Assembly: GCA_904420065.1 (NCBI GenBank)
Contig: CAJFTU010000046.1
Coordinates: 1 to 64,000, forward strand
Length of the DNA stretch: 64,000 bases
Reading direction: 5' to 3'
From: an uncultured Emergencia sp.
Lineage (GTDB): Bacteria; Bacillota; Clostridia; Peptostreptococcales; Anaerovoracaceae
The notes below the pieces were generated by a model. It did not search any database and was not told the DNA's origin. It saw nothing but the letters and a program-made list of their open reading frames with translations. This document shows, piece after piece, positions 57,619 through 62,875 of the stretch (positions within the stretch are counted from its first letter, which is position 1; the number at the start of each line of letters is the position of its first letter). The position numbers were made by a program, and so were the translations under genes.

Positions 57619-57634
57619 TGTTTCATGTGAAACA
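57619..57634. other. parS site (one mismatch)
   Basis: TGTTTCATGTGAAACA differs from the B. subtilis parS consensus TGTTNCACGTGAAACA by one base in the centre. It lies between parB and the SprT-like gene. Confidence 0.85.
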
Positions 57635-57638
57635 AACC

Positions 57639-58535
57639 TTATAAACCCACTGATTTCAACAGATCGATCAGTCGATTCAGTTCATCTGTTCCGTAATACT
57701 CTATCTGTATATTACCCTTTTTCCCTTTTTCGTTAATGGTAACCTTAGTTCCGTACAGATCCTTCAGTTCGCTTTCGACGTGTATCGTATCAGCGCTCTT
57801 CGTCTTTTTCACCGGCTTCTTTTTCGGCTTGCCTTTTTGGCTTGCCAGCTCTTCAGTCTTTCTCACCGACAGACCCTCGTCGATGATCTTTCTGCAGAGT
57901 TCGGCCTGCACTTTTTTATCTTCTATGGGTACCAGCGCTCTGGCATGTCCTGACGAAAGCTTTCCTTCAGCGACGAATCCTCTTATCTCCGCCGGGAGTT
58001 TCAGAAGTCGGAGGGAATTGGTGATATACGGTCTGCTCTTGCTGACGCTCTTGGACACCTCTTCCTGCGTCAAGCCGTATGTTTTGATCATCTGCTCCAG
58101 ACCCTCTGCCTCTTCTATAGGATTCAGGTCTTCGCGCTGCATATTCTCGATGATCGCAATCAGCATATTTTCTTCATCGGAGAACTCTCGGATCAGGCAG
58201 GGTACTTCTTTCAGCTCTGCCCCTCTTGCAGCCCTCCATCTTCTCTCTCCGGCTACAATCTCATAGCCGGTCTTTCTCTTTCTGACTACGAGGGGCTGAA
58301 TGATACCGTGCTCTACGATAGAGGCGGAGAGTTCGTTTATCTTCTCTTCATCGAAGTATTTTCTCGGTTGATTTTCGTTAGGCCGAATATCGTTGATGTC
58401 GATGTACATCACCTGATCCCCTGCCGGCGCGGTTTCCCCTTTTTCCTCTTCCGGTCTGGCGACAGGAGCCTGATCGGCGAAAAGGGCGTCGAGTCCCCTT
58501 CCCAATCCTCTGTTCTTTGCTTTTGCTGCTGTCAT
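57639..58535 (-). CDS. parB: Chromosome partitioning protein ParB (Spo0J)
   Basis: 298 residues, CTP-dependent parS-loading clamp. GLGRGLDALFADQ N-terminus recruits ParA; IRPNENQPRKYFDEEKINEL, the CTP site GERRWRAAR, ENMQREDLNPIEEA and the HTH LTQEEVSKSVSKSRPYITNSLRLL follow, then a linker and dimer domain. The ATG at 58535 has GGGAGG and overlaps the parA stop. Confidence 0.97.
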   Translation of the reverse strand: MTAAKAKNRGLGRGLDALFADQAPVARPEEEKGETAPAGDQVMYIDINDIRPNENQPRKYFDEEKINELSASIVEHGIIQPLVVRKRKTGYEIVAGERRWRAARGAELKEVPCLIREFSDEENMLIAIIENMQREDLNPIEEAEGLEQMIKTYGLTQEEVSKSVSKSRPYITNSLRLLKLPAEIRGFVAEGKLSSGHARALVPIEDKKVQAELCRKIIDEGLSVRKTEELASQKGKPKKKPVKKTKSADTIHVESELKDLYGTKVTINEKGKKGNIQIEYYGTDELNRLIDLLKSVGL

Positions 58536-59308
58536 GATCTGTTTTCCTCCCATTCCAGAAATTCTTCAGCGAAATCTCTGTAAGCCTCTGCTCCTTTTGA
58601 TTTCGGATCGTACTCCGTAATCGCCATGCCGAAGCTGGGAGCTTCTGCTAATCTTATGTTCCTCGGAATTACCGTGGAATATACCTTCGAGCCGAAATAT
58701 TTCTTTACTTCCTGCACGACCTGCACGGACAGATTGGTCCTTCCGTCGAACATGCTCAGGATTACTCCCTCAATCTCCAGGTCCTTGTTCAAATTTTTCT
58801 TAACCAATTCAATGGTGCTCACCAGCTGACTAACCCCCTCAAGAGCGTAAAATTCGCACTGAATAGGAATCAGCACGCTCTCTACCGCCGTCAGGGAGTT
58901 AATGGTCAGCAGACCCAGTGAAGGAGGACAATCGATAAATATGTAATCATAGTCGCCCTTTATCCTGTCTATGGACTTTCTCAGTCTTTTCTCTCTTCCA
59001 TCCTGTTCTACCAGCTCTATTTCAGCGCCGGCCAGATCTACGCTTGCCGGAATAATGTCCAGGTTTTCTATTCCCGTATGAATAATCGCTTTCTTTGTAT
59101 CGAAATTATCCTCGATCAAAAGATCGTACACCGTATAGTCCAAATTTCTCTTCGAAACGCCTATGCCGCTTGTCGTATTCCCCTGAGGATCTATATCCAG
59201 CATCAATACTTTTTTACCTCTCATGGCCAGGCTTGCGCCCAGATTGATATTAGTCGTGGTCTTTCCTACCCCGCCTTTTTGATTGAATATTGCTATAGCT
59301 TTTCCCAA
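58532..59308 (-). CDS. parA: Chromosome partitioning ATPase ParA (Soj), TTG start
   Basis: 258 residues. IAIFNQKGGVGKTTTNINLGA is the deviant Walker A, FIDCPPSLGLLT Walker B. The TTG at 59308 follows AGGAGG by eight bases and gives the normal N-terminus. Operon with parB. Confidence 0.96.
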   Translation of the reverse strand: MGKAIAIFNQKGGVGKTTTNINLGASLAMRGKKVLMLDIDPQGNTTSGIGVSKRNLDYTVYDLLIEDNFDTKKAIIHTGIENLDIIPASVDLAGAEIELVEQDGREKRLRKSIDRIKGDYDYIFIDCPPSLGLLTINSLTAVESVLIPIQCEFYALEGVSQLVSTIELVKKNLNKDLEIEGVILSMFDGRTNLSVQVVQEVKKYFGSKVYSTVIPRNIRLAEAPSFGMAITEYDPKSKGAEAYRDFAEEFLEWEENRS

Positions 59309-59343
59309 TGTTTTTCCTCCTGACTTAAGCAAGTACTGAAATC

Positions 59344-59372
59344 ATTATATATGATTTGAATAGGATTTACCA
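59344..59372 (-). promoter_or_regulatory. Probable promoter of parA-parB
   Basis: A perfect TATAAT (59349-59344, minus strand) with a weak -35 (TGGTAA, spacer 17), downstream of the parS-terminator palindrome. Confidence 0.4.
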
Positions 59373-59382
59373 CTATTTCACT

Positions 59383-59422
59383 AAAAAAAATGGATGTTTC
59401 ACGTGAAACATCCATTTTTTTT
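59383..59422. terminator. 40-bp perfect palindrome combining parS, intrinsic terminator and the noc stop codon
   Basis: Consensus parS TGTTTCACGTGAAACA (59395-59410) sits at the centre. Pairing continues outward through GGA/TCC, AT and eight A facing eight T, so all 40 bases are self-complementary. RNA from either strand would form a 12-bp-plus hairpin followed by U8. The TGA of noc (59401-59399) is inside parS. Confidence 0.9.
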
Positions 59423-60193
59423 CGGAATGACAATTTTTACTTCTACGTACTCCCCCTTGTCGTCTTCAAAGAACCTGGCATTCTTTTCCATATCGTGTAT
59501 CTGCGAAAACGCCTTCTTTATCGTATTCATATATATTTTATAACTTATGTAATTGATTTTCCGCTTTTTCCGACTGTTCTCCTCTTCTTTGACAAGAAAA
59601 TCCTCAATCAGCTTTTCCGTTTGCTTCACGTTCAGGTTATTATTGATCACCCGCTGAAGAATCCTCTCCCGAACCTCCGGATCTTCCACTTTCAGAAGCG
59701 CACGCGCGTGACGCTCTGTCAGCTTGGCCTCCGCCAGTTTTTTCTGAATATCCGGCGGCAGGGTTAAAATCCTCAGTTTGTTGGATATAGTCGACTGGCG
59801 CTTTCCGATCTTGTCCGCCAATTCACCCTGCGTCAGCTCAAACTCGTCGATCAGCCTCTTATAGGCGTAGGCCTCTTCGATATAGCTGAGATTTTCCCGC
59901 TGAACATTCTCCACTACGGAGATCAGCGCCGCATCTCTGTCGTCGAAATCCTTTACGATCGCCGGGATCTTGGTCAGCCCCGCCAATTTTGCAGCCCGTA
60001 CTCTCCTTTCTCCGGCGATCAGGGAATATTCCCCCGATCTCTCTTTTTTGACAATAACCGGCTGAAGTACGCCGTATTCGGCAATCGAATTCTTCAGGTC
60101 GTTCAGTTCTTCTTCGGCAAAGAACTTTCTGGGCTGATCCGGATTGGTGCAGATCTGCTCCAGAGGCAGTTCCGTGGTCTTTCTCTGTAACAT
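59399..60193 (-). CDS. noc: Nucleoid occlusion protein Noc (ParB paralogue)
   Basis: 264 residues. ParB-like CTPase (NPDQPRKFFAEEELNDLK; AGERRVRAAKL; ENVQRENLSYIEEAYAYKRL) with an HTH that differs from ParB (LTQGELADKIGKRQSTISNKLRIL), in the Noc position rsmG-noc-parA-parB. The ATG at 60193 has GGAGGG. The N-terminus goes almost at once into the CTPase domain and lacks the amphipathic membrane-binding helix of B. subtilis Noc. The stop codon lies in parS. Confidence 0.88.
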   Translation of the reverse strand: MLQRKTTELPLEQICTNPDQPRKFFAEEELNDLKNSIAEYGVLQPVIVKKERSGEYSLIAGERRVRAAKLAGLTKIPAIVKDFDDRDAALISVVENVQRENLSYIEEAYAYKRLIDEFELTQGELADKIGKRQSTISNKLRILTLPPDIQKKLAEAKLTERHARALLKVEDPEVRERILQRVINNNLNVKQTEKLIEDFLVKEEENSRKKRKINYISYKIYMNTIKKAFSQIHDMEKNARFFEDDKGEYVEVKIVIPKKNGCFT

Positions 60194-60234: not shown

Positions 60235-60248
60235 TTTTCCCGGGAAAA
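60235..60248. promoter_or_regulatory. Candidate Noc-binding site in the noc promoter region
   Basis: TTTTCCCGGGAAAA is a perfect palindrome holding the TTTCCCGGGAAA core of the B. subtilis Noc site ATTTCCCGGGAAAT (12 of 14 bases equal). It is about 40 bases upstream of the noc ATG and just before a possible -10, TATTCT. Confidence 0.7.
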
Positions 60249-60265
60249 AGCGGACAAAAAATAAG

Positions 60266-60298
60266 CAAAAAAGCCTATATTCTATCAAAATATAGGCT
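60266..60298 (-). terminator. Intrinsic terminator of the mnmE-mnmG-rsmG operon
   Basis: Minus strand AGCCTATATT (60298-60289) pairs with AATATAGGCT (60281-60272), then six T. The hairpin overlaps the rsmG stop codon. Confidence 0.85.
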
Positions 60299-60995
60299 CT
60301 TTCGCAGGAGTTCCCGCTTTTCTCGGAAATTTCGCGGGCGTATTCTTTATTTTTTCAATTACTGCAATATTGTGATCAAATCCCTCGACAGGCGATTCCT
60401 CTATCCTCATGCACTTTCCACCGAGAACAGAGATGGCTTTCTCCGCCTTTTTCACCTCTTCCCTGCCGTCAGGCCCTTTGTAGGCAAGGAGATATCCGCC
60501 CTTCCGGAGAAAGGGCAGACAGTATTCAGAGAGAACGGCCATATTGGCTACCGCTCTGGATACGCAGAGATCAAAGCTCTCCCGATACGCCTTATTTCGC
60601 GCCAGCTCTTCGGCACGGCCGTGGATGGTCCGAACGTTAGAGAGACACAGATCGCCGGAAAGGGAGGAAACCACTTTCAGTCTCTTATTCAGAGAATCCG
60701 CCAGGATGAATTCCTTTTCCGGACTGACGATGGCCAGCGGAATTCCGGGAAATCCGGCACCGGTACCCACGTCGATAACCGTCCTGCTTTCTTTGTACTC
60801 CGCAAAACCGCAGCACAGAAGAGAATCGATAAAGTGCTTGAGAATAAACTCCTCCCGATCGGTAATAGCGGTCAGATTCAGCTTCTGATTCCACTCCAGT
60901 ATTCCTTCCATATACCTTCTGAACTTTTCCATGGTTTCATCGTCATGGGGCAAATCCAGACTTATAAGTGCTTCTTTCAGTCTTTCCATATTCAT
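60285..60995 (-). CDS. rsmG: 16S rRNA (G527-N7)-methyltransferase
   Basis: 236 residues (GidB). [17 protein letters not shown] is the SAM loop, [20 protein letters not shown] the family N-terminal motif and [20 protein letters not shown] the catalytic region. Start overlaps the mnmG stop (ATGA). Confidence 0.97.
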
Positions 60996-62875
60996 CTCTT
61001 TCTTCTCTGCTTTTCCAGATAAATCAGTAATACATTGATATCCGCCGGGGAAACGCCGGATATCCGGGAAGCCTGTCCCACGGAAGCCGGTTTAATCTGA
61101 TTCAGCTTCTGCATGGCTTCAATTCGCAGACCTTCAATTAGGGAATAGTCCATATCTGCGGAAAGCCCTTTGTTTTCCAGTTTCTTGAACCGGTCTATCT
61201 GATTCAGCTGTTTTTTGATATAACCTTCATATTTGATCTGCACCTCTAACTGATTCTTCTCATGGGAAGAAAGCTGAGGCCTGTCTCCGTCTATCTCTTT
61301 CAGATTCTCGTAAGTCACCTCCGGCCGCTTCATCAGTTCAGCCAGACTGGAACGATTTTGCAGCGGCGAACTTCCGATTTTCTCCAGATATTCGTTTGCA
61401 TCGGCCGGCTGAACGAAGGTCTGCTCCAACCTGTTCTTCTCCCTCTCGACGTTTTCCTTTTTCTTCAAAAATCGCTGATATCGGTCTTCGTCAGCCAGTC
61501 CAATCCGGTAGGATTTCTCCGTCAAACGCAAATCTGCGTTGTCTTGCCTGAGAAGCAGCCTATATTCCGCTCTGCTGGTCATAATTCTGTAAGGTTCATT
61601 AGTACCTTTAGTCACCAGATCGTCGATGAGAACGCCAATATAAGCCTCGCTTCTATCCAGTACAAAAGGCGATTTTCCATTTATTTCCAAATTAGCGTTT
61701 ATCCCCGCCATCAATCCCTGAGCCGCCGCTTCCTCATACCCTGAACTTCCGTTAAACTGTCCGGCGCAAAATAAATTTTTAATTAATTTATTTTCTAAAT
61801 TAGGCTTTAATGTAAGTGGATCTATACAATCATATTCGATTGCGTAAGCAGGTCTTGTTATAACTATATTTTCTAAACCAGGTATAGTGTGATAGAATTC
61901 CTCTTGTACATCTTCAGGTAAACTTGATGACATACCTTGTATATACATTTCCTCTGTATCTAATCCTTCTGGTTCTACAAATAACTGGTGTCGTTTTTTG
62001 TCAGAAAATCTATTTATTTTGTCTTCTATTGATGGGCAATACCTTGGTCCTATACCTTCTATTTGTCCTCCAAATAAGGCTGATCTATGGAAATTATTTC
62101 GTATAACAGTATGTGTTTCTTCATTTGTATAAGTTAACCAACATGATATTTGATCTTTGTGCAGGTTATCGTTCATAAAAGAAAACGGTACTATATTTTC
62201 ATCACCCTTTTGTTCTGACATCTTATCGTAATCAAAAGTAGATGCCAACGCTCTTGCCGGAGTTCCGGTCTTAAACCGCCGCATTTCCAGTCCGTGTTTT
62301 TTCAGATTTTCCGCCAGTTCTACGGAAGGCGCCAAACCATTGGGGCCGCTCGAAAAAGCGCTGTCTCCGATAAAAATTTTTCCCCTGAGGAATGTCCCTG
62401 TCGCCAGGATCACCGCTTTCGCTTTATAGTAGGTGTGCGTCTTTGTCACCACGCCGCGCACGATTCCATCCTCTACGATCAGGTCCGTCACCTCGGCCTG
62501 TTTCATCGTGAGATTTTTCTGCTTTTCGATGGTCTTCTTCATCTCCACATGATATCTGTGTTTATCCGCCTGCGCCCGCAGAGAATGTACTGCCGGTCCC
62601 TTAGCCGTATTGAGCATTCTGCTCTGTATGAAGGTCTTATCGATGTTTTTTCCCATCTCTCCGCCAAGGGCGTCGATCTCTCTGACCAGATGGCCTTTTC
62701 CTGTTCCCCCTATGGACGGATTGCAGGGCATCATGGCTACGGCTTCCAAATTCATGGAAAAGAGCATGGTTTTGCTTCCCATTCGAGCGGCTGCAAGGGC
62801 CGCTTCACAGCCCGCGTGCCCCGCGCCTACCACAATTACGTCATATTCACCCATCAATACCTGTTCCATATCCAT
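60992..62875 (-). CDS. mnmG: tRNA uridine-5-carboxymethylaminomethyl modification enzyme MnmG
   Basis: 627 residues (GidA), FAD-binding partner of MnmE in modifying U34 of tRNAs. [21 protein letters not shown] is the FAD fold, [24 protein letters not shown] the signature with its cysteine, and the C-terminal helical domain is complete. The reading frame is intact throughout, but codons ~212-370 are far more AT-rich than the rest (see the 61765-62240 entry). An ATG at 62854 directly before [10 protein letters not shown] is an alternative start. Confidence 0.95.
61765..62240. other. AT-rich mosaic block inside mnmG
   Basis: Hand count: 116 G+C in 61801-62160 (32%), against 30/60 in 61681-61740 and 29/60 in 62281-62340. 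The change is abrupt on both sides while the encoded protein stays a normal MnmG. This is the pattern of intragenic recombination with a low-GC relative. Confidence 0.7.

Follow-up and report, generated by a model that had tools for sequence, protein, structure and literature searches.

Chromosomal parS sites are bound by ParB (Spo0J), and mnmE-mnmG-rsmG-noc-parA-parB is the usual origin-proximal gene order. The parS locus of an uncultured Emergencia sp. described here resembles other chromosomal parS sites in having a perfect 16-bp consensus beside parAB in the usual origin-region order. Most of the parS sites examined were not terminator-like, whereas the Emergencia site forms part of a longer conserved hairpin with a U-tract. 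The closest parallel is found in the DNA uptake sequence (DUS) terminators of Neisseria, where a short DNA motif with a separate task as DNA supplies the stem of intrinsic terminators located at gene ends (PMC2397512). Each Neisseria stem consists of two copies of an asymmetric uptake motif, while here one extended palindromic parS forms the stem and the separate task is chromosome segregation. The locus was not classed with the DUS-type dual-use terminators, since its stem is one extended parS and only the way of working is alike. In Pseudomonas aeruginosa, ParB represses the promoters adjoining parS3 and parS4 (PMC5521831). The Emergencia parS is likewise intergenic and beside promoters, but in P. 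aeruginosa the effect is on the promoters, whereas here the parS DNA itself would encode the transcript end. Terminators near stop codons are described for Bacillota (PMC7858274), with stop codon and hairpin nearly coinciding as they do at rsmG in the present sequence; the Emergencia stem differs in also carrying a predicted protein-loading site. No description of parS as a terminator was found in the literature searched, which covered few subscription journals.

The window analyzed was a stretch of 64,000 nucleotides from contig CAJFTU010000046.1. Near its end the minus strand carries, in this order, mnmE, mnmG, rsmG, noc, parA, parB and a SprT-like gene (Table 1). The core parS lies between noc and parA, and its placement in the origin region was judged from the gene order. 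The sequence at 59383-59422, AAAAAAAATGGATGTTTCACGTGAAACATCCATTTTTTTT, was read directly and is identical to its own reverse complement. The perfect symmetry is 40 bp long and is ended by the flanking bases T/C. It was by far the longest perfect palindrome in the window, with a runner-up of 20 bp, and 20 bp was also the longest palindrome obtained in 100 block shuffles of the window. The core of the palindrome is the 16-bp consensus parS, TGTTTCACGTGAAACA, matched perfectly at 59395-59410, where 0.04 parS matches with up to two mismatches were expected in the entire window. Only two parS sites with at most one mismatch were found in the 2.41-Mb draft genome, and this was the sole perfect one. 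At least 8 extra palindromic base pairs surrounded 14 of 75 parS sites taken without selection from this genome and its relatives, compared to 0.04 of 75 expected by chance when the flanks were swapped between sites. A chance palindrome was ruled out by the flank swap (14 versus 0.04) and by the block shuffles (maximum 20 bp). The first-pass annotation had reported a perfect 40-bp palindrome centered on a consensus parS, which the sequence and the motif count confirmed. From the motif match, ParB is expected to load onto the chromosome mainly at this site.

Table 1. Features of the noc-parAB region, in positions of the window.
Feature	Position	Strand	Basis or remark
parS, second copy with a single mismatch, 4 bp past the stop of parB	57619..57634	.	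internal control; motif match, folding
parB (spo0J)	57639..58553	-	
parA (soj), TTG start	58532..59308	-	AGGAGG at 59316-59321
Predicted parA promoter, GTGGTA-N18-TATAAT, 10 bp past the U-tract	59344..59373	-	conserved in relatives
Perfect palindrome, 40 bp; 18-bp hairpin with 4-nt loop as noc-strand RNA	59383..59422	.	sequence, folding
U8 tract completing the predicted intrinsic terminator of noc	59383..59390	-	
parS, perfect consensus, expected ParB loading site	59395..59410	.	motif match
noc stop codon TGA, inside parS, at the hairpin apex	59399..59401	-	
noc, Noc-type ParB paralogue, ATG start	59399..60193	-	strong Shine-Dalgarno sequence
A8 at the 5' end of the noc-strand hairpin	59415..59422	-	overlaps conserved Lys-Lys/Asn codons of the Noc C-terminus
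rsmG terminator, its loop containing the rsmG stop codon; laid out alike but lacking parS	60265..60305	-	sequence reading, folding

Folding of the palindrome as single-stranded RNA resulted in an 18-bp stem with a 4-nt loop at -20.2 kcal/mol (z -6.7). A gap-free alignment of 25 noc/rsmG-parA junctions, comprising 23 distinct sequences, was used for comparison. The core parS was invariant across the 25 junctions and therefore uninformative for covariation, while the added arms varied. Changes on both sides were seen for 10 of the 18 stem pairs, and 93.7% of the pair cells were paired across the 23 distinct sequences. The number of doubly changed pair cells was 57, compared to 16.0 +/- 3.0 in shuffles, and the covariation score was 0.41 versus 0.12, with none of 500 shuffles scoring as high. 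When the pairing partner was slid by 1-3 columns, pairing fell from 94% to 47-56%. Because compensating changes outside the fixed parS keep the pairing intact, the arms are, by the evidence of the alignment, an RNA hairpin kept by natural selection. The fold, the U8 tract and the covariation bear out the earlier description of a terminator-like hairpin, and the conservation in relatives for which a check had been proposed was found for the hairpin, the U-tract and the noc stop inside parS.

A simple promoter/terminator scan did not list the site at 59383-59422, probably because its T-tract pairs with the A-tract, and the palindrome was therefore scored directly. A terminator score following the d'Aubenton-Carafa formula was used, and its values are best read on a relative scale. 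The noc strand scored 30.3 and the other strand 28.3. parS sites without extension scored -32 on average, and one of 25 was above zero. Downstream of the U-tract, a conserved promoter-like sequence is followed by the Shine-Dalgarno sequence and TTG start codon of parA. noc and parAB look like separate transcription units, since the U-tract hairpin precedes the conserved promoter-like sequence. The site thus lies at the 3' end of a transcription unit as delimited from the sequence, with the noc stop there and the predicted parA promoter downstream. The upstream neighbor of noc, rsmG, likewise ends in a terminator, with a score of 11.4. From these features, it is very probable that the palindrome is an intrinsic terminator and that it separates noc from parAB.

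The explanation considered likely for the locus is that a chromosomal parS has been lengthened on both sides into an intrinsic-terminator hairpin that ends the noc transcript, and that parAB starts from its own promoter. At the DNA level the core would serve as ParB loading site. RNA from noc, or from rsmG in relatives without noc, would fold into the hairpin followed by the U's, and the transcript would end. The upstream unit would stop at parS, and about 10 bp beyond, parAB would start from a promoter of its own. Both the termination of transcription at 59383-59422 and the binding of ParB there are inferred from sequence. Co-option is the simplest account of its origin, with a palindromic protein site being lengthened and U's being added; this would be an easy evolutionary step because such a site is already half-way to a hairpin. 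Why both functions sit together is a matter of conjecture, and shielding of parS and the parAB promoter from transcription could be the reason.

The first-pass annotation had regarded the palindrome as a terminator in both directions. The structural part of this claim stands, as the two strands score alike in this sequence, and an A-tract preceding the hairpin is regarded as typical of bidirectional terminators (PMC12207403). A terminator selected to stop transcription from both sides is nevertheless unlikely. Among 24 relatives, the mean score was 19.0 in the noc sense and 4.0 in the antisense direction, and the sense score was higher in 20 of the 24. On the noc strand of the relatives, the T-run was longer than the A-run in 16 cases and shorter in 2, with 8 ties. 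The A-tract consists largely of codons for the conserved Noc ending, IPK(K/N), and has a length of only 2-5 in genomes without noc. No convergent gene points at 59383-59422 from the other side. For these reasons, namely the scores, the T-runs, the Lys-coding A-tract and the lack of an opposing gene, selection on the terminator seems one-sided, toward the noc strand. The sense score was below zero in three of the 24 relatives (L030, L031 and L012), in which the U-tract is weak and the stem remains.

Terminator-like parS sites were also looked for in other bacteria. In the order, the pattern A5..parS..T5 was present at 11 places in 10 of 198 genomes and the inverted pattern T5..parS..A5 in none of them. 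In a phylum sample of 249 genomes, strict A5-parS-T5 was found in two, this one included, and the inverted control pattern in none. A scan of named species genomes, with simple ORF calls as neighboring genes, gave at least 120 stretches. Among the matches listed, 26 sites had an extended stem containing G+C, and the neighbors were known for 24 of these. Of the 24, 17 had the 3' end of a gene directed at them at a distance of no more than 60 bp and 11 were located between convergent genes, in Leuconostoc, Methylotenera, Sulfuritalea, Selenomonas, Acidaminococcus and others. For A/T-only sites among the matches listed, 32 of 79 were near a gene end in this way (Fisher p = 0.011). Judged from these scans, parS hairpins are recurrent and occur in several phyla, but make up a minority of parS sites. 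A common stem GCAG-parS-CTGC with T-tracts, between convergent genes, was seen in Betaproteobacteria (L071, L074, L082, L090). A Methylocapsa MAG (L069, L075, L121, L144, L163, L164) had several AAAAA-parS-TTTTT sites for which a position at gene ends was not obvious, some with a further TTAGAAT-ATTCTAA-like flank.

It is quite unlikely that the terminator look of the palindrome is incidental and that it represents a DNA cruciform or an extended site at which ParB, or a different dimeric protein, binds DNA. The symmetry is perfect at the DNA level, the junction set shows no variation in the A/T adjoining parS, and the many sites of the Methylocapsa MAG would also fit such a DNA site. However, the added pairs vary between species and yet stay complementary, unlike a protein recognition sequence. 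Single-step departures in the first 8 flanking pairs were, in small numbers, five G.U on the noc strand and one A.C. The T-run on the noc strand and the more frequent placement of G+C-containing stems close to gene 3' ends also argue against a mere DNA site. The second parS of the same genome served as an internal control. It has no palindromic extension and no significant hairpin, is present in most Emergencia checked and is not extended in these genomes either. A general requirement of ParB for the extension was rejected on account of these unextended copies. Transcription seems to pass through the second parS, which means that insulation is no general need of parS.

On the minus strand, the last codons of noc are ATT CCG AAA AAA AAT GGA TGT TTC ACG TGA, and Noc terminates in IPKKNGCFT. 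The frame used by noc is the one of three in which parS reads TGT TTC ACG TGA, that is Cys-Phe-Thr-stop. The first-pass annotation was right in making the TGA part of parS. An IPK(K/N)xxCFT ending with the stop in parS was found in 7 of the 10 Emergencia genomes keeping noc and in two nearby genomes (L103 and L041). The same ending is in frame in L032, where noc is interrupted by an upstream stop. The TGA is located directly before parS in L025 and L028, and in two Clostridium genomes (L087 and L113) the stop is a TAG that lies in the stem, immediately beyond parS. A congener (G010, L031) and two other family members (G016, L008; G023, L012) have no noc between rsmG and parA, and a clear Noc was not detected elsewhere in these three genomes. 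In all three the hairpin is still present before parA, 5 to 54 bp downstream of the rsmG stop codon. That the hairpin remains with parS and the parA promoter whichever gene lies upstream hints at a role in shielding parS and parAB from upstream transcription.

Terminators of B. subtilis are found few nucleotides past stop codons, where close-following ribosomes would mask them (reviewed in PMC7858274). In Bacillota, which are classed as runaway-transcription bacteria (PMC13323073), the proximity of a terminator to the stop codon is interpreted as an indication against closely following ribosomes (PMC7858274, PMC13323073). Since the hairpin persists without noc, the rsmG terminator is laid out alike and transcription in Bacillota is classed as uncoupled, termination is unlikely to need noc translation, contrary to what had been proposed earlier. 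A translation-dependent attenuator, in which the ribosome ending noc sits on the stem, so that termination and read-through into parAB follow noc translation, would gain from a stop codon at the hairpin apex, where the terminating ribosome would cover the stem, and from the conservation of this stop in most Emergencia, but is highly improbable in view of the noc-less relatives, the stop codons outside parS in Clostridium, L025 and L028, the stop-in-loop layout at rsmG, the runaway transcription of Bacillota (PMC13323073) and the predicted promoter of parAB itself.

With parS as part of a terminator separating noc from parAB, one short DNA sequence would hold two unrelated jobs, as a centromere-like site in DNA and as a transcript end in RNA, and would provide an evolutionary case of such sharing. 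The locus offers a way to test whether ParB loading is disturbed when parS is transcribed, and whether termination changes when ParB is loaded. A feedback between the two is a tentative and rather doubtful extension: termination would keep RNA polymerase off the ParB site and the parAB promoter, and loaded ParB, acting as a roadblock, would strengthen termination or repress parAB, linking centromere occupancy to par expression. Changes to parS in such species may alter the transcription of neighboring genes, and parS mutants could therefore be misread.

The name noc was used as a positional, Noc-type label, as the best family for the product, TIGR04285 (NCBIfam), was matched at 300.4 bits, below the curated cut-off of 315. 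The best solved-structure matches of the product were Noc. The closest relatives are an uncultured Emergencia MAG (L152), with a Noc 90% identical over the 144 residues present, and E. timonensis (L108), with a Noc 79% identical, which fits the placement of the genome in Emergencia. The genome contains 13 NBS sites with at most one mismatch, compared to about 0.4 expected by our own estimate and none for a reversed-pattern control. Noc of Bacillus has an N-terminal amphipathic helix. By inspection, this membrane-binding helix is absent from the present protein, which starts MLQRK directly before the ParB_N fold, as is conserved in the genus. Membrane binding of this Noc may be absent or different.

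Some minor observations were made in the neighborhood. The middle of mnmG (61650-62250) has a GC content of 0.33-0.35 compared to 0.43-0.53 on either side. A recent foreign origin of this part was not supported, because the stretch follows the order of similarity of the relatives. An inverted repeat, AAATCAT-TATAT-ATGATTT, at 59339-59357 overlaps the -10 region of the predicted parA promoter, and the full repeat was not seen in the relatives compared. An NBS-like palindrome, TTTTCCCGGGAAAA, is located at 60235-60248, in the short stretch between the rsmG terminator and noc. It is conserved in several Emergencia and suggests that Noc regulates its own promoter.
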